Source: a virus
DNA length: 40,532 nt
Direction: 5' to 3' (one strand)
IMG/VR virus record: IMGVR_UViG_3300045996_000932
Location: 1-40,532 of that record
Of this stretch, positions 8,435-39,830 are shown piece by piece; position 1 is the stretch's first letter, and every line of letters begins with the position of its first letter. Made by a program: the position numbers and the translations under genes. A model generated the notes under the pieces. That model was not told where the DNA came from, did no database searches, and was given only the letters and a program-made list of their open reading frames with translations.

Positions 8435-9517
8435 ATGGCCGTCGAAGTCACCATTCCTATCGCGTCCATGACGAGCGGCAACACTGCGCTTGAGCGGGCG
8501 CGTGTCTCTGCCGCTCGGACGGCCCTCACTCAAGCGGCTGTGCTGACCGGCAATTACAGCAGTTGGCGCTCAGGGGCCGATGTTGTTATCTCGTTTGAGA
8601 CGCGCGCCATCGTTGGCGGGGACGGCGAGCCAGGGGCTGCCGGGCCGCCGGGACCAATGGGACCGCCGGGGGAAAAGGGAGAAACGGGGAATGCAGGCTC
8701 TATTGGACCCCAAGGTGACGCTGGCCCTGCTGGAGCACCTGGCCAACCGGGCCTTTCTGGAGAGCGAGGCCCCCAAGGAGAGCCCGGCCTACAAGGCTCT
8801 ATTGGTTTACAGGGCCCTAAGGGCGACACAGGTGCGGAAGGAACACCTGGCCAGGCTGGCCAAGCTGGTGAGCAAGGCCCGCAAGGTGCGAAAGGCGACA
8901 CGGGGCTTCCAGGCTCACCTGGCGCGAAAGGCGACAAAGGGGACCAAGGGGACCAAGGCATACAGGGGCAGACAGGCTTAACCGGCCAGACCGGGGCGAC
9001 GGGGCCGGCCGGGACCGACACGTCTATTGTGCGGGTGCTAACAGCTGATGCTGCAGGTGCGAACAGCAATGCAGCTCAGCCGCTGCTGCCCGGTGCGGCC
9101 GCGATCAACTTGGCAGCCTCTACCGCTTACGAGTTAGAGATGCTTGCCAACATCACGCGCTCTGCGGGCACCACGAGCCACACAGTTGGCCTCAGCTTCG
9201 GCGGGACGGCCACCCTACAGGCAACGGGCGGGATCGAGTATACGGCCCTCTCAGGCAATCCTACGGGCAACGTGCTCGGCCCCGCCTCGACCATCCGGGG
9301 CGAGGTAGCGACAAACGTCGTCGTGACGGCAGCCAACACGGTCGCCACTGAGAACCTACGCATCGTCGTCCTGGGCGTCGTCCGCACCAATGCAGCGGGC
9401 ACATTCGTGCCGCAATTCACCTATTCGGCCGCTCCTGGCGGAGCGCCTAGCATTCGCCGGAATAGTTATGTAAAACTGCGCCCCATCGGTGCCGCGAACG
9501 TGGCGGGGGTGAACTAG
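8435..9517 (+). CDS. Collagen-like tail fibre or adhesin
   Basis: 360 residues starting immediately after the previous stop. The N-terminal 60 residues may anchor to the virion. Residues 61-192 are 44 uninterrupted Gly-X-Y triplets with many charged KGD and GEQ triplets, which would form a collagen-type triple helix. The C-terminal 165 residues (LRPI, FTYSAAPGG) look like a beta-rich trimeric head. Such fibres are common phage appendages. The gene ends in a TAGTG overlap with the next. Confidence 0.8.
   Translation: MAVEVTIPIASMTSGNTALERARVSAARTALTQAAVLTGNYSSWRSGADVVISFETRAIVGGDGEPGAAGPPGPMGPPGEKGETGNAGSIGPQGDAGPAGAPGQPGLSGERGPQGEPGLQGSIGLQGPKGDTGAEGTPGQAGQAGEQGPQGAKGDTGLPGSPGAKGDKGDQGDQGIQGQTGLTGQTGATGPAGTDTSIVRVLTADAAGANSNAAQPLLPGAAAINLAASTAYELEMLANITRSAGTTSHTVGLSFGGTATLQATGGIEYTALSGNPTGNVLGPASTIRGEVATNVVVTAANTVATENLRIVVLGVVRTNAAGTFVPQFTYSAAPGGAPSIRRNSYVKLRPIGAANVAGVN
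8615..9010 (+). repeat. Collagen-type Gly-X-Y coding repeat
   Basis: Forty-four consecutive codon triplets encode Gly at every third residue. The DNA is degenerate rather than a simple tandem repeat, so selection is on the protein. Length can vary by in-frame recombination. Confidence 0.9.
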
Positions 9518-12078
9518 TGTCGACCATTGCAGGCATCGAGGCCGTTGAGCTTCTAGCTTCCGCAGACCCAGCTCTGGCCGATGCCGTTCGCAAGCGTGGC
9601 CGCAAGCCGGTTGTCGAGCGCACCGCAGCGCAGCCTCTGACCATCAACGGGATCGAGGGTGTCATCTTCGCCGCCGCCTCAGGCGGGCCGGGAACGGTCT
9701 TTCGCCTTGATAGCATTGACCAAGCGGCGGCCTTGGCGGCAAGGCACCGCGGCCAGCGTGTCGTTGTCGTGGTCGATAGCTCTGGCTCCATCGTGGCCTC
9801 TGCGCCCGCAGCGCCGGTCAACACGGTCGCTCCTGCCATCACGGGCACCCTGATTGAGGGCCAGACCCTCACGGCCTCTACGGGCACGTGGACGGGCTCT
9901 CCGGCGCCTACCTACACCTACCAATGGCAGGCCGACACGGGCGGCAACGGCACCTTCGCCAACATCGGCGGAGCGACGAATAGCACCTACCTGCTGACGA
10001 GCGGCGAGGTAGGCGACGACGTGCGCGTTGTGGTCACGGCCACCAACGCATCGGGCGCGGTGTCTGCCAACTCGGCCGAGACGGCCACGATTGCGGCCCT
10101 CGACACAACCCCGGCCGCCTTCTCGTTCACCGACATTACGGATGCCACGCTCTCGACGGTCTATGAGAGCAACACGATCACGGTCACCGGCATCAACGGC
10201 ACGGCCACGGTCACGATCACGGGCGGCGAGTATAGCCAGAACGGCGGCGCCTACACGAGCAGCGCCGGGACCGCTGTGGTCAACGACACCTTCAAGGTGC
10301 GCCATACCTCATCCGGGAGCAACTCGACTGCGACGAACACGGCCCTCACGATCGGCGGCGTCTCGGACACCTACACGACCACGACCGCAGCGGCTGCTGA
10401 CACGACACCGGACGCCTTCACCTTCACTGACATTACGGACGCGACCGTCTCGACCCTTTACGAGTCGAACACCATCACGGTGACCGGCATCACTGCGGCT
10501 GCCAACCTCACGATCACGGGCGGCGAATACTCGATCAACGGCGGGGCCTATGCCTCATCGGCCACGACCGTTGTCGTTAACGACACGGTGAAGGTGCGGC
10601 ATACCTCATCGGCATCGAACAGCACAGCTACCAATACCGTGCTGACCATCGGCGGCGTGAGCGACACCTACACGACAACCACAGCCGCGGCGGGCGACTG
10701 GTGGGAGGACGCGGCATACGACAACCAGTCCGTCATCGCAGACTTCAACAACAACCGGTATGCGCTGCCTGCTGAGGTTGAACTGATTACGAATGGCGAC
10801 TTTAATGGGAGCGCGACCGGGTGGACGCTCACCAATGTTGCCTACAATGCCGGGGCCATTGAAGACACAATTGGGGGCGCAAACGGCACGGCGGTCCAGT
10901 CGATTTCTCTCGTTGCGGGCAATTTGTATATTGTCACTTATACAGTTGTTTCAGTAAGTGGGGCAAATGTACAAATTCAGTTTACTGGGGGCACAGCTGT
11001 TTCGGGAACGTCCCGTTCTTCTCCTGGCACATATACGCAGTATCTTACGGCGCTATCTGGCAATAATGCCGTCCGTATTCAAGGCACTTCGTCTGCTGCT
11101 CTATGGAATGTCGACAACGTTTCCGTCAAAGAGGTGAACCTCACCGCCAGCGGTGGCGTCTACCCCAAGCGCTCTGCCACCTTTGACGAGGTGTTCGCCT
11201 ACACGGCGGCGAGCACGACGGCGCGCACGTATATCGCGTCTGGCGGCACCATGATGAACGACCTTGCCGTCAACGCCCCCCGCTTCACCTACATCAACAC
11301 CGACCGGCAGTTGCGGCTGGAGAGCGCGGCGACGAACGTTTTCCTGAATAGCGCGACAGGCGTGACACAGAGCATAAGCGTCACCGCACAGGCTTACACG
11401 CTGTCGTTCTATGGGACGGGAACCATTACCTTAAGCGGCGTCTCAACGGCGGGTCCGCTGGTTGGGACGGGTGCGAACAATCGTGTCAGCCTCACCCTTA
11501 CGCCAACAGCCGGTAGCTTGACCCTAACTGTGTCTGGGACGACTACCAACGTTCAACTAGAGGCGTCATCCTTCGTCACCGATTACATTCCAACAGCAGG
11601 TGCCTCAGTCACGCGCGCCATTGAGACGGCCCGCTTCAGCCCGCTGATTGAGGCTATCTTGCAGCGGACGGCGGCGAGTGTGGTAGTGCGGGCTGATCTG
11701 ACCAACACGGGCGCAACAGATCGCAGGTATATGGGCGGAGCGACTACCGTTGCGCTGGCCTTTGCCGATGCTACGGCGACGGTCGTTGGTGCGACGAACG
11801 CCACGAATGAAGTTACGGCTACCATTGGCGGGGCGGGGAGCAACGCGAACGCTCTAGGCGTTGCCTTGGGTTACGATGGCAGCGGCCGGTCGCTGACGGC
11901 GAACGGCGGGACAGTGGGGACCGACGCTAATACGGCTGGCAGCCTGACAACCGTTTACCTAGGGCGCGACACCACGAATGCGGCGGGCACTTACGGCGAC
12001 GGCTACTACGATTACGTCGCCATTTCGCCCGAGCGCCTGCCCGACGCAACCCTAATAGCCCTCGCGGTGGCAGCATGA
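9517..12078 (+). CDS. Large Ig-repeat adhesin or fibre protein
   Basis: 853 residues from GTG 9517. After an N-terminal region of about 100 residues comes an Ig-like domain (APTYTYQWQ, about 105-195), then two tandem repeats of 99 residues (about 196-392), each with FTDITDAT, YESNTITVTG and VRHTSS. Residues about 425-540 form a carbohydrate-binding-like module starting LITNGDF and ending WNVDNVSVKEV, encoded by A+T-richer DNA. The C-terminal 300 residues resemble phage lectin-like folds (RFTYINTDRQLRLESAATN, YGDGYYDYVAISPERL). It probably binds host surface glycan. It overlaps the next gene by ATGA. Confidence 0.75.
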   Translation: MSTIAGIEAVELLASADPALADAVRKRGRKPVVERTAAQPLTINGIEGVIFAAASGGPGTVFRLDSIDQAAALAARHRGQRVVVVVDSSGSIVASAPAAPVNTVAPAITGTLIEGQTLTASTGTWTGSPAPTYTYQWQADTGGNGTFANIGGATNSTYLLTSGEVGDDVRVVVTATNASGAVSANSAETATIAALDTTPAAFSFTDITDATLSTVYESNTITVTGINGTATVTITGGEYSQNGGAYTSSAGTAVVNDTFKVRHTSSGSNSTATNTALTIGGVSDTYTTTTAAAADTTPDAFTFTDITDATVSTLYESNTITVTGITAAANLTITGGEYSINGGAYASSATTVVVNDTVKVRHTSSASNSTATNTVLTIGGVSDTYTTTTAAAGDWWEDAAYDNQSVIADFNNNRYALPAEVELITNGDFNGSATGWTLTNVAYNAGAIEDTIGGANGTAVQSISLVAGNLYIVTYTVVSVSGANVQIQFTGGTAVSGTSRSSPGTYTQYLTALSGNNAVRIQGTSSAALWNVDNVSVKEVNLTASGGVYPKRSATFDEVFAYTAASTTARTYIASGGTMMNDLAVNAPRFTYINTDRQLRLESAATNVFLNSATGVTQSISVTAQAYTLSFYGTGTITLSGVSTAGPLVGTGANNRVSLTLTPTAGSLTLTVSGTTTNVQLEASSFVTDYIPTAGASVTRAIETARFSPLIEAILQRTAASVVVRADLTNTGATDRRYMGGATTVALAFADATATVVGATNATNEVTATIGGAGSNANALGVALGYDGSGRSLTANGGTVGTDANTAGSLTTVYLGRDTTNAAGTYGDGYYDYVAISPERLPDATLIALAVAA
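10102..10695 (+). repeat. Two tandem 297-base Ig-like coding repeats
   Basis: The units start at 10102 and 10399 (both GACAC) and encode 99-residue repeats with the same block order. They are diverged at third positions, so the duplication is not recent, or is maintained by selection on the protein. Confidence 0.85.
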
Positions 12079-32849: not shown

Positions 32850-33163
32850 ATGCGCGCCGCCGCCCTGTGGTTGGCATCCTGCGCCACCCATTCCGAGAAC
32901 CTCATCCGAAGATAGTCACGCTCGACCCGCACCTTGTTGGCGTGCTGCCGAGCCTTAACCATGCCCTCTACGAACCGACTCCACTCCTCCGACGCCTTGA
33001 CAATCATCTCGGCCCGGCTGACCGGCATGTCGCCCTGCTTAAGCATCATCTGGGATAGGACAGCGCTCTTTGTCTCCTCAAGCATCTGGGCAGCCGCCTC
33101 GGCGTCTACGGCCTCTAGGGCTTTCCGCTCCCACTGTTCCGAGATAGGAATATTCTGGATCAT
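32846..33163 (-). CDS. Hypothetical helical protein in recombination operon
   Basis: 105 residues, helical and charged (KALEAVDAEAAAQMLEETKS, EWSRFVEGMVKARQHANKVR). It lies between the exonuclease and HNH genes with ATGA-type overlaps on both sides, a place where phages often keep small recombination accessory proteins. Function unknown. Confidence 0.65.
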   Translation of the reverse strand: MIQNIPISEQWERKALEAVDAEAAAQMLEETKSAVLSQMMLKQGDMPVSRAEMIVKASEEWSRFVEGMVKARQHANKVRVERDYLRMRFSEWVAQDANHRAAARI

Positions 33164-33801
33164 GCTGCCTCCTCCAGCCCGTAGCGTTCCCGCAAGGCTG
33201 CCTCCTTCGCGTCAAGCTCGGCGAGGAACGTCTTAACCTCGCCCTCCAGTTCGGCCACCCAAGCCTTGGGCGGGGCTGGCATCTCAAGGACGAAAAACTT
33301 CATGCCCTCCGGCAACCTGGGATCGAAGCTGACGAAATCGCACCCTTCCCGGCCGGTGCAGATCATTTGCCAGTCCATCTGCAACTGATAAGCCTTGCTG
33401 ATCTGGCCGGTCAGCAGATAGTCGATGTGGGTTGCTGTGTTCGGGCACTTGAACTCGACCAGCCGGTTGCCACCGACCAGGCCATCAGGGCTACAGCCAG
33501 CCATAGCAATGGTGGGGTGGGGCACGAAGCCCACCGTCTCAACAGTGACGCCTTTCCAGAACTCATACGCATGTCGGGCATCCTCCTCCGTGTCCTTGCC
33601 CCATTGCATGGCCGCTGACACGAACCCATCGGCGGCCCGGCCGGTAAGCCGCTCGATTAGCAGCTCGGCCATGTAGTTAGCCCTCCCTGCCCCGTAGCCG
33701 CTCTTCGTCCTAGCAACGACATCGCTGATGCGCGAGCCCGTTACCCGGCCCAGACGAGCGTTTGCCCACTCGTCTGAGCCCTGCACTAGTTCGAGTGTCA
33801 T
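33160..33801 (-). CDS. YqaJ-family recombinase exonuclease
   Basis: 213 residues. The N-terminal GSDEWANARLGRVTGSRI, then AMQWGKDTEEDARHAYEF, AGCSPDGLVGG and RLVEFKCPN form the lambda-exo/YqaJ set; Asp in SPDG and Glu/Lys in EFKCP are the PD-(D/E)XK metal site, and YQLQMDWQMICTG is the conserved following helix. It resects dsDNA 5' ends for annealing by the adjacent ERF protein. ATGA overlap with ERF. Confidence 0.92.
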   Translation of the reverse strand: MTLELVQGSDEWANARLGRVTGSRISDVVARTKSGYGAGRANYMAELLIERLTGRAADGFVSAAMQWGKDTEEDARHAYEFWKGVTVETVGFVPHPTIAMAGCSPDGLVGGNRLVEFKCPNTATHIDYLLTGQISKAYQLQMDWQMICTGREGCDFVSFDPRLPEGMKFFVLEMPAPPKAWVAELEGEVKTFLAELDAKEAALRERYGLEEAA

Positions 33802-34628
33802 TCGCCGTCCTTTATCTTGGCGTATTCGGCGTCTACCTGGGCAACGGAAGCTTCTAGCTGCTTCTTAAGGTTGGTCCGCTGTTTAGCCTTGATGGCTGCC
33901 CAAGCGTCGTCAAGCCGGCTGGCGGGAATGTCGGTCAGGCTCCCTACCTTCATGTAACGGCAGAACGCCGCTTCATCGGCGCCACACTCCAAGAGCACAA
34001 CGCTTATCTCAGACGCTTCCTCGTCCGTTATCTTGCCGCCCCCCTTCCCAGCGGCCTGCGCGTCGTCGTCCTGCGCCGCAGCGATGCCTAGCGACGCCTT
34101 GAGCGTGTAGCGTTGCAGGTAGGACACCGCGCTGCCGATGGCTTGGATCGGGTTCTTGTTGCCGCTGGTGTCGACGGCCGCCTGCAGCGTGTTCTCCTCG
34201 AAATGACCAAGCCTGTGCGAGATGATGCACGTCACCATGACCGGCTCGCCGGGCTTGTTGCTGGTGCGCCAGCGGGCGGTTAGGCCGTGCTTGGCCAGGA
34301 TGGGGGAAACCTGCTCAAGCAGGTTGTCGAGCGTCTCGTATTTATAAGCCGCCTTGCCGGTGCCAAAACTAACCTCGCGATTTTTGACGATGCGGGGCAA
34401 CTCACCCCGCGCCGCCGAAATGGCCTCGTCAAACGCCTTGCGCCCCTGCCCGGTCTCCCACCGTTCCTGCAAGGAGAGGAGACGCTCAAGCACGTCAATC
34501 CCCGCGCCTTGCGAAATGGCCCTCTCAATCATGTTCATGGGCGTCAACGGCTCTGTCCCGGTCACTTCGAAAATCTGCTGGCCGGCTGGTGTTTGCAGTC
34601 GCTTTTGCATTTCGTTCTCCTCGTTCAT
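33798..34628 (-). CDS. erf: ERF-family single-strand annealing protein
   Basis: 276 residues from ATG 34628 (GAGG seven bases upstream); ATG 34610 has an equally good GAGGAG and may be used instead. VSFGTGKAAYKYETLDNLLE followed by ISHRLGHFEENTLQA, NPIQAIGSAVSYLQRYTLKA and LGIAAAQDDDAQA is the ERF core. The C-terminal third is helical with Lys-rich end. It anneals complementary strands and pairs with the YqaJ exonuclease, giving phage-type recombination. Confidence 0.92.
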   Translation of the reverse strand: MNEENEMQKRLQTPAGQQIFEVTGTEPLTPMNMIERAISQGAGIDVLERLLSLQERWETGQGRKAFDEAISAARGELPRIVKNREVSFGTGKAAYKYETLDNLLEQVSPILAKHGLTARWRTSNKPGEPVMVTCIISHRLGHFEENTLQAAVDTSGNKNPIQAIGSAVSYLQRYTLKASLGIAAAQDDDAQAAGKGGGKITDEEASEISVVLLECGADEAAFCRYMKVGSLTDIPASRLDDAWAAIKAKQRTNLKKQLEASVAQVDAEYAKIKDGE

Positions 34629-36844: not shown

Positions 36845-37048
36845 GTGACGACACCCCGAGACATATCTGAGACACGAGCCTTGCTCGGAGAAAGTCAGAG
36901 AAAATTCGCAAAACGCTTCGGCGTCAATCAAGCCACCATCAGCCGCTGGGAGGCTGGCATCAAGGGGCCGCCCGAGAGGGGGCCGGCCGCGATGGCGGTT
37001 CAACAGATAATTCGCAACCTTCGGAGAACCCGCTGCAATGATGTATGA
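36845..37048 (+). CDS. XRE-type helix-turn-helix regulator
   Basis: 67 residues from GTG 36845 with AGGAGA seven bases upstream. TRALLGESQRKFAKRFGVNQ followed by ATISRWEAGIKGPPERGP is a canonical HTH_3 with recognition helix ATISRWE. Small, single-domain, Cro-like. It is divergent from the leftward operon and is the obvious candidate to bind the shared operator. Only regulator of this kind in the window. Confidence 0.85.
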   Translation: MTTPRDISETRALLGESQRKFAKRFGVNQATISRWEAGIKGPPERGPAAMAVQQIIRNLRRTRCNDV

Positions 37049-37484
37049 TCTGAGCGACGAACCCAAGACCGTCGAAGAGATGGCCGAGCGCTATAAGGCC
37101 GCCGCCCGGCGCATGAAAATGCGCGATCCGACGAGGCCCCCGCCTGTCGTGTTCACGCCCAAGCCCAAACCAGAGCCCAAGCCGGAACCCGTGGTAGAGC
37201 ACGTGCCCCACCGTCTGCCCGATATGCCAGACCGGGTGCGCGACATAATCCGCGACGTCGCCAAGCGGCACAATATCTCGCTTGCGTTCATGCTCTCCCG
37301 CAGCCGGATGCGGCCCGCCGTTCGGGCCCGACAAGAGGCCGAGTGGCTGCTGTATGTCGTCGGACAGGGCCGCTGGTCCACCACCCTCATAGGCAAGTGG
37401 ATGGGAGGGCGCGACCATACCACCGTGATTAACTCGATCCGGATCGCAAGCCGCTGGATGGGGGCTGTCGATGCCGCGTGGTAA
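37038..37484 (+). CDS. DnaA domain IV (DnaA-box-binding) protein without AAA+ domain
   Basis: 148 residues. After a flexible part with a KPKPEPKPEP stretch (about 40-50), residues about 62-140 match DnaA domain IV: VRDIIRDVAKRHNISLAFML, SRSRMRPAVRARQEAEWLL and the signature GGRDHTTV (123-130). That domain recognises TTATCCACA. There is no Walker motif, so it cannot form a DnaA ATPase filament. It could mark the phage origin, compete with host DnaA or act as regulator. It overlaps its neighbours. Confidence 0.88.
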   Translation: MMYDLSDEPKTVEEMAERYKAAARRMKMRDPTRPPPVVFTPKPKPEPKPEPVVEHVPHRLPDMPDRVRDIIRDVAKRHNISLAFMLSRSRMRPAVRARQEAEWLLYVVGQGRWSTTLIGKWMGGRDHTTVINSIRIASRWMGAVDAAW

Positions 37485-38380: not shown

Positions 38381-38408
38381 AGGCCGGTGGGGGACAACCC
38401 ACCGGCCT
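38381..38408 (+). terminator. Eleven-pair hairpin after nuclease gene
   Basis: AGGCCGGTGGG, loop GGACAA, CCCACCGGCCT; perfect pairing. No rightward U-run follows (AACACAGCC), while leftward it is followed by TCTCTTTG. A partial or leftward terminator insulating the initiator gene is plausible. Confidence 0.6.
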
Positions 38409-38438: not shown

Positions 38439-38498
38439 ATGCGATTTAGTGCGCGAAACATAGCGCCTTCTGACGACAATCACAAGACCGCCCTGTGA
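38439..38498 (+). CDS. 19-residue leader peptide
   Basis: ATG 38439 has AAGGAG seven bases upstream, the strongest ribosome-binding site in the area. The product MRFSARNIAPSDDNHKTAL ends in a GTGA overlap with the initiator gene, which has no site of its own. Likely a coupling leader that sets initiator level. Confidence 0.5.
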   Translation: MRFSARNIAPSDDNHKTAL

Positions 38499-39292
38499 CC
38501 ATCCTTCGCCGCGAGGTGAGGCATCGCTTCACCACGATAGACAACGGCCTCGTTGAGGACCCTCGTCTGTCGCCGGAAGAACTCGGCCTGATGGTCTACC
38601 TGCTATCCAAGCCTGACAATTGGTCAGCCCAGCCGGCCGAGCTTATGAAGCGGTTCGATATGGGCAGAGACAGGTGCTACCGCATCATCAAAGACCTGAT
38701 TGACAAGGGCTGGCTAGAGAAGCGGGAAAACCGCACCAGCGAGGGACAGTTTCAGGGGATAGAGTATATAATCAAGGAGGAAAACCCGCTTCCGGGAAAC
38801 CCGCATGCGGTTAAGCCGATTGCGGAAAACCCGGACTCTAATAAAGACTTAGAGATAACAAAGACTGAGAATAACAAACACTCTGTGCCCGCTAAGGCGG
38901 GCCGTGTGTCGGTTTCTAAGAAACCTCGTTATCAACCCGCCTTTGACGAGCTATGGGGCGTCTTCCCCAAGCACCCGAACGCATCCAAGTCGGCTGCGTT
39001 CATGCTCTGGATGAAGCTGGACGCCGAAGACGCCATTGACTGTTTCCGGGGAGCCCAGTGTTACGCCTCGTTTCTGGCTGCCGAGCGGCTCAAGCGCCCA
39101 GATTATCCAGGCCTTCACCTAGCGACGTTTATCAGCCAGCGCCGATGGGAGGCGCACCTAGAGGCCCGTGTGTTGCAGAACGGCAACGGTCACGCGCCGC
39201 AAACCGAAGAGGAGAAACGAGCCAAGATACGCGAGCTGCAACTGAAGATTTACGGCAAAGCTTTCGAGGAGCACCCCCATGAACATCAGTGA
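38495..39292 (+). CDS. Replication initiator, winged-helix O-like protein
   Basis: 265 residues from GTG 38495. The N-terminal 85 residues form a winged-helix domain (FTTIDNGLVEDPRLSPEELG, MKRFDMGRDRCYRIIKDLID, KGWLEKREN) as in DnaD/phage O-type initiators. The middle is a low-complexity linker with ENPLP, GNPHA, VKPIA and ENPDS units encoded by iterons. The C-terminal domain (FDELWGVFPKHPNASKSAAF, HLATFISQRRWEAHLE) likely recruits host helicase. No phage helicase or polymerase is present, so host replication machinery is presumably loaded here. Confidence 0.78.
   Translation: MTILRREVRHRFTTIDNGLVEDPRLSPEELGLMVYLLSKPDNWSAQPAELMKRFDMGRDRCYRIIKDLIDKGWLEKRENRTSEGQFQGIEYIIKEENPLPGNPHAVKPIAENPDSNKDLEITKTENNKHSVPAKAGRVSVSKKPRYQPAFDELWGVFPKHPNASKSAAFMLWMKLDAEDAIDCFRGAQCYASFLAAERLKRPDYPGLHLATFISQRRWEAHLEARVLQNGNGHAPQTEEEKRAKIRELQLKIYGKAFEEHPHEHQ
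38779..38882. other. Putative replication origin: four 15-bp iterons and A+T-rich tract
   Basis: Units begin at 38779, 38794, 38809 and 38824 at exact 15-base spacing, with core GGAAAACCCGC (third copy degenerate). A related GGGAAAACCGC lies at 38724. Immediately after follows an A+T-rich stretch (38836-38882). Iterons inside the initiator gene next to an A+T-rich melting region is the lambda ori design. Confidence 0.7.
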
Positions 39293-39830
39293 CGCTGAGA
39301 TTTACAACAAGAACGCCTCGGCCTGGATCAGGGCCAACGAGAACACGGGCTTCGTGATCCATAGCGGAGAGAAGCCGCCGAACAACAACAAAAGCGAGTC
39401 GTGGGACTCGTGGTTCGCCTACTTTCAGAAGATTGGCCACGAGCGATTGCTGAAGGTCATGCGGGCTCACGAGAACCGGGTCTGGCTAGGCAAGGATGGC
39501 GTCACCGTTCCGACGGAGTGGCCGATAGACTTCGACCCGACGGCAGCCAAGCTCGTCCACCGTTACCACCCGCCCCGCATCGAGGGGCTGACCGATGCAC
39601 AGAAAGCCGAGGTTGTCCGGCGAGCCATGACCAACGCCGGCTTCGTGCCAAAGGAGTATAGGCACGGCAAGCCGGTGTCCCCAGATATGCTGGTAGGAGA
39701 GGCTAGGCAGCGCCGCCAGGCCGAGATTGCCGCCGAGGAGACCAAGTTGGCTGAGATTAAGAAGATGCCTGTGCCGGGGCTCTCAGAGGCCGCGAAGGCT
39801 ATCTTTAACAAGGACAAGCATGGAGCCTGA
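39279..39830 (+). CDS. Hypothetical replication-region protein
   Basis: 183 residues, overlapping the initiator gene by 14 bases. SESWDSWFAYFQKIGHERLL and VTVPTEWPIDFDPTAAKLVH, then a helical charged C-terminus (ARQRRQAEIAAEETKLAEIK). A helper of the initiator is plausible from position and from similar co-located phage genes, but no domain is recognised. It contains the inverted repeat with two GANTC sites. Confidence 0.6.
   Translation: MNISDAEIYNKNASAWIRANENTGFVIHSGEKPPNNNKSESWDSWFAYFQKIGHERLLKVMRAHENRVWLGKDGVTVPTEWPIDFDPTAAKLVHRYHPPRIEGLTDAQKAEVVRRAMTNAGFVPKEYRHGKPVSPDMLVGEARQRRQAEIAAEETKLAEIKKMPVPGLSEAAKAIFNKDKHGA

Follow-up and report, generated by a model that had tools for sequence, protein, structure and literature searches.

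Does a row of 15-bp repeats that lies inside a phage gene for a replication initiator serve as the origin at which this phage starts replication, or does it reflect a repeated peptide in the encoded protein? The question arises in a viral stretch of 40,532 nucleotides, which was analysed as a whole and is referred to as the window. The first-pass annotation had described four 15-bp repeats followed at once by an A+T-rich tract, both within a gene for a winged-helix initiator. This arrangement was confirmed, with the repeats at 38778-38833 and the tract at 38834-38882. The features of the locus are as follows:

38495-39292, + strand: replication initiator gene, an open reading frame of 265 amino acids with a GTG start; its product comprises a winged-helix N-domain (residues 1-98), a low-confidence linker (100-141) and a helical C-domain (148-259)
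38778-38788, + strand: iteron 1, dyad AGG-AAAAC-CCG, one half-site base off
38793-38803, + strand: iteron 2, dyad CGG-GAAAC-CCG
38808-38818, + strand: iteron 3, dyad CGG-TTAAG-CCG
38823-38833, + strand: iteron 4, dyad CGG-AAAAC-CCG
38834-38882, + strand: A+T-rich tract with imperfect 17-bp repeats, presumed DNA-unwinding element
39279-39830, + strand: gene of no known family (183 amino acids), the open reading frame directly after the initiator gene

The best family of the 265-residue protein was PHROG_270, replication initiation protein (3.1e-23), and the cut-off of Pfam HTH_36 was just reached (25.2 bits as compared to 25); the identification of the enclosing gene as that of a winged-helix initiator was thus borne out. 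An AlphaFold model was confident for the N- and the C-domain. Residues 100-141, for which the greater part of the repeats and tract codes, showed pLDDT values below 50 and are predicted to form a loose, disordered linker. The pTM of the model was 0.43; therefore, the placement of the domains was not used. Structural comparison of the N-domain model gave RctB domain 1 (Z 9.1, rmsd 3.1, 97 residues aligned), primosomal DnaB (Z 8.6, rmsd 3.6, 96 aligned), the pSK41-type RepA 4pql (Z 8.2, rmsd 4.0, 86 aligned) and DnaD (Z 8.2, rmsd 5.0, 97 aligned). The model thus appears structurally nearest to replication proteins, which is support but not proof, since unrelated winged helices reach Z values of 7-8. 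A Foldseek search returned no match at E 0.001, and a PDB sequence search nothing useful.

Among the 26 rows that TRF returned for the window, those for 38779-38833 (period 15, 3.7 copies) and 38839-38882 (period 17, 2.6 copies) had the top two scores, a 297-bp duplication aside. In order, the 15-bp copies read GGAAAACCCGC, GGGAAACCCGC, GGTTAAGCCGA and GGAAAACCCGG. The proposed four copies at 15-bp pitch are present, but the proposed core GGAAAACCCGC is exact in copy 1 only, and copy 3 is clearly degenerate. Each copy is better described as an 11-bp dyad CGG-N5-CCG; the dyads start at 38778, 38793, 38808 and 38823, the first with AGG. A pattern of three exact dyads at pitch 15 had a single match over the 40,532 bases, while 100 dinucleotide shuffles yielded none; no second dyad array was found elsewhere in the window. 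The array lies about 280 nt into the gene, 3' of the region that codes for the DNA-binding domain, in the interdomain linker. Over the 48 nt 3' of the last dyad the A+T content was 69%, as compared to 42% in the remainder of the gene. The pentapeptides ENPLP, GNPHA, VKPIA and ENPDS are indeed the product of the four copies. At a lag of 15, DNA self-identity was 22/30 and the mean of 1000 synonymous-codon shuffles 17.1 (p = 0.001); hence, the DNA repeats more closely than the peptide alone would cause.

Conservation was analysed in related initiator genes. The nearest relative found, the viral contig L002, is 49% identical at the protein level and has kept both repeats and tract. At residues shared with L002, the same codon was used in 23/25 cases within codons 95-125 and in 36/65 cases within the N-domain (Fisher p = 0.001), so that the iterons passed the check for conservation at the nucleotide level. 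A broader sample, in which the window's own gene was joined by others collected by protein similarity and blind to the motif, comprised 177 initiator genes and was thinned to 97 representatives. Conditions were set such that a chain consists of at least three dyads with at most one mismatch each at a pitch of 14-16, and that the linker zone comprises nucleotides 210-600 of the gene. Such a chain was found in the linker zone of 72/97 representatives and elsewhere in the gene in none of the 97; synonymous shuffling predicted 31.9 genes with a chain and base shuffling 0.1, so that repetition in the peptide accounts for part of the signal. Three sites at a pitch of exactly 15 occurred in 70/97 genes, whereas any other pitch from 9 to 29 gave at most two (the multiple, 30, was considered apart). 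Exact dyads numbered 214 over the 97 genes, with 73 expected from synonymous shuffles. Lag-15 identity exceeded synonymous shuffles at p < 0.05 in only 52/97 genes, no chain of three CGG/CCG dyads was present in 25/97 representatives, and in some of these no array of any kind is evident. These gene counts are not independent events because the initiator genes are related to one another.

The A+T-rich tract was conserved as well. It lies directly 3' of the array in 133/138 genes, and over these 138 genes its A+T fraction exceeded that of synonymous shuffles (0.667 vs 0.573). Particular motifs were enriched in the tracts over synonymous shuffles, namely TAGTAA (37 vs 3.0), CTAGTAA (16 vs 0.4) and ACTAAT (39 vs 8.4). 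DnaD-type TnnT elements, a search idea taken from passages of PMC10201434, numbered 346 over the 138 tracts vs 210.5 in the shuffles; the tract of the window contains only one, and no conclusion was therefore rested on this enrichment.

The likeness to lambda that the first-pass annotation had claimed was found to hold for the arrangement and to fail in the strict sense. In lambda ori, too, iterons precede an A+T-rich tract midway along the initiator gene, gene O (PMC7466680, in excerpt), but the four lambda iterons are of 18 bp and are spaced at pitches of 20, 24 and 23 bp, as compared to 15 in the window. Membership in the lambda O family was ruled out: the HMM of the window initiator's family did not match lambda O, and O-like PHROG profiles matched the window initiator only at 4.9e-5 and 0.0025. 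In its mode of action the putative origin of the window resembles lambda ori, but the initiator belongs to the HTH_36/PHROG_270 type.

Among tested precedents, plasmid pPR9 comes closest. Its hybrid initiator has an HTH_36 N-domain, which together with another origin region replaces those of pSK41, and a pPR9 mini-replicon replicates (both from passages of the review PMC5703833). As in the window, pPR9 carries rows of 15 bp with CGGATAACCCG-like dyads inside the gene and then an AAT/ACT-rich tract; it differs in being a plasmid of a Gram-positive host with imperfect dyads and another, pSK41-type C-domain. Furthermore, the GenBank annotation of Staphylococcus phage phiJB sets a rep_origin within an HTH_36 gene that likewise contains 15-bp repeats and then an A+T-rich tract. 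The phiJB repeat is TCGGAAAACGG and not CGG-N5-CCG, a DnaC-type loader gene comes next, and its origin is known by annotation. RepA_N plasmids such as pSK41 resemble the window in having sites inside the initiator gene, a linker and a winged-helix N-domain: passages of PMC5703833 place the binding sites centrally in rep, describe the linker as dispensable and relate the fold of the N-domain to DnaD, and semi-palindromic iterons around an A-tract are described in part of PMC7145576. The RepA_N Pfam domain was absent from the initiator's matches down to E 0.1. By its description in an excerpt of PMC6316719, SPP1 oriL can be likened to the window too, in that gene 38, which encodes the origin-binding protein, contains direct repeats as well as an A+T-rich region. 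The oriVs of Paracoccus HTH_36 plasmids, with two or three direct repeats of 15-39 bp, differ in arrangement from the window array as far as the description in passages of PMC3832669 goes.

In the window, a match to the HTH_36/PHROG_270 family, a dyad array right after the winged helix and an A+T-rich tract were found together, as expected of an in-gene origin of this kind. We read 38778-38882 as the replication origin of the phage, embedded in the coding sequence of the very initiator that binds it, with a probability of about 85%; binding and melting are part of what we infer. The rep_origin annotated within an HTH_36 gene of phiJB and the pPR9 mini-replicon with its similar rows lend support to this reading. 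The winged-helix N-domain (residues 1-98) would bind the four CGG-N5-CCG dyads, probably with a pair of protomers per dyad as their symmetry suggests, and the assembled complex could help to open the adjoining downstream A+T-rich tract. The helical C-domain may then recruit the replicative helicase, aided by proteins of the host or by whatever the next gene encodes. Repeats and tract would be selected as DNA, and the encoded linker would tolerate whatever sequence results.

The alternatives were weighed against this origin reading. A proline-rich pentapeptide linker might be selected as protein, the repeat in the DNA being secondary, and indeed peptide repeats of the type ENPxx occur at pitch 15 in many genes, and in about one-third of the genes, the 31.9/97 given above, a dyad chain would survive synonymous shuffling. 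A scan of IMG/VR viral contigs for three exact dyads bears on this possibility; it used no protein information, and open reading frames were matched afterwards to an N-domain HMM built from the 97 representatives. At pitch 15, 87 of the 120 stretches listed lay in initiator reading frames (68 distinct initiators), always 1-268 nt 3' of the N-domain among the matches listed. Some of the other 33 listed stretches are in-frame protein repeats, and at least one (L188) looks like a truncated initiator. Initiator reading frames also accounted for 15/23 stretches at pitch 14 (11 distinct) and 34/44 at pitch 16 (28 distinct). Pitch 16 had been meant as a negative control and came out positive; pitch 17, used in its place, gave 0/12. 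Every array that the scan found in an initiator reading frame, at pitch 14, 15 or 16, sits downstream of the N-domain. At pitches 14 and 16 the frame shifts from copy to copy and the peptide shows no repetition, yet the dyads stand at the same place; additionally, nine identical 11-mers, including CGGAAAACCCG and CGGGAAACCCG of the window, are found in each of the three reading frames. We conclude that the repeat is maintained at the DNA level. Codon choice conserved beyond the residues also speaks against the peptide. Synonymous-codon shuffles and the frame-turning pitches led us to reject the peptide repeat as the cause, and this explanation is largely refuted, with very little probability left. 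The suggestion that the pentapeptide pattern is a by-product of the repeats agrees with the evidence from the frames at pitches 14 and 16. As judged from comparison of the sequences, the repeat array is conserved as DNA, not as peptide.

Three further explanations accept the array as a DNA element but assign it another role. Iterons of iteron plasmids can act in regulation as well as in initiation, which counts for an autoregulatory or copy-control site, where the initiator represses its own transcription or pairs origins while replication starts elsewhere. The position of the array about 280 nt into the gene, past the region coding for the DNA-binding domain, makes this quite unlikely, as do the tract found directly 3' of nearly all arrays and the lack of a second array in the window. 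The array could also be bound by a protein other than the initiator, for example the DnaA domain IV-like protein of the phage (37038-37484). A Bac_DnaA_C protein is encoded upstream in both the window phage and L002, and a DnaA box with one mismatch, TTTTCCGCA, overlaps iteron 4. DnaA boxes with at most one mismatch are, however, not enriched but below chance in the window (13 vs 24 expected), none of nine near upstream neighbours in eight further phages whose initiator is of this type carries Bac_DnaA_C, and across contigs the array tracks the initiator gene itself; we regard another binder as extremely improbable. Finally, the inverted repeats might act as a hairpin in folded RNA or single-stranded DNA, for example as a primosome loading site. 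The region 38765-38895 folds better than 200 dinucleotide shuffles (z = -4.0 as RNA and -3.7 as DNA), and 31/72 arrays beat shuffles that preserve the half-sites (z < -2; mean -2.0). Repeated dyads, however, fold by construction, and with the half-sites kept the window reached a z of only -0.9 and was not special, which leaves a hairpin element with a very small probability.

Beyond the origin proposed for the window, the data suggest one portable dual-coding origin module in initiators of the HTH_36/PHROG_270 type, a generalization that we consider probable with clear reservation. In this module an array of dyads, of which most are CGG-N5-CCG and which are spaced at a pitch of 14, 15 or 16 but not of 17, would precede an A+T-rich tract with an excess of CTA[GC]TAA/ACTAAT, and both would lie within the interdomain linker in any frame. 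Phages, prophages and plasmids would carry it in at least Alpha- and Gammaproteobacteria, Bacillota, Bacteroidota, Actinomycetota and Thermotogota (one metagenome-assembled genome), and the DNA motif alone would locate the origin. Lambda O, SPP1 gene 38 and RepA_N plasmids already provide examples of in-gene origins as such; what appears to be new is a module that is shared across the family and does not depend on the frame. No description of it was found in an open-access library, a scope that leaves most subscription journals outside, and excerpts of PMC7157519, PMC11142715 and PMC4887207 contain nothing on the dyad motif.

Phages with mapped origins are few to our knowledge. If the module is real, a 41-base pattern would point to the likely origin in many of the phages and prophages that have an initiator of this common type, and dyads read in three frames would be a clear example from nature in which regulatory DNA overrides protein sequence. 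The spread of half-sites across related initiators would furthermore offer a route to how a winged helix chooses its site. At the gene level the outer half-site bases co-vary, being complementary in 68/75 genes (permutation p = 1e-4), mostly of the common C..G type; with C..G left out, 14/68 sites were complementary, and beyond the main type the sites co-vary weakly. In the recognition helix, the motif G[RK]D was present in 62/72 representatives with CGG arrays vs 13/25 without (Fisher p = 0.0015), a link that may come from relatedness alone. Several of the 25 representatives without a chain carry other dyads, for example TGG..CCA or GGG..CCC. The arrays of the initiator genes L171, L178, L172, L093, L128 and L145 consist of TGG..CCA, AGG..CCT, GGG..CCC and CGG-N4-CCG dyads, and they appear to represent this module with altered specificities.

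Nucleotide skew had been suggested as a check of the origin, and no turn of the GC skew was seen at 38778-38882; neither the skew nor the DnaA boxes, fewer than expected by chance, lend support to the origin. The reading frame 39279-39830 occupies the position of the helicase-loader gene in relatives, and by this position it is a candidate loader gene; it is an orphan, its 183-residue product having no match in Pfam, PHROG, phages or viral contigs.

Several observations were made elsewhere in the window. Upstream of the proposed origin, 37038-37484 (+ strand) encodes the Bac_DnaA_C protein (148 amino acids, 1.8e-12) that has its counterpart upstream in L002. The gap before the initiator gene contains a perfect 11-bp inverted repeat with a 6-nt loop and no T run (38381-38408). 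Genes for an Erf-type annealing protein and a YqaJ-type exonuclease adjoin at 33160-34628 on the - strand, opposite to the replication genes. The assignment to P22-like phages was supported for the portal (Pfam P22_portal, 2e-106), whose best relatives among the matches listed are mostly from Pseudanabaena phages with 33-35% identity. A 297-bp tandem duplication with 74% matches (10102-10691) lies within the gene for an 853-residue protein at 9517-12078.
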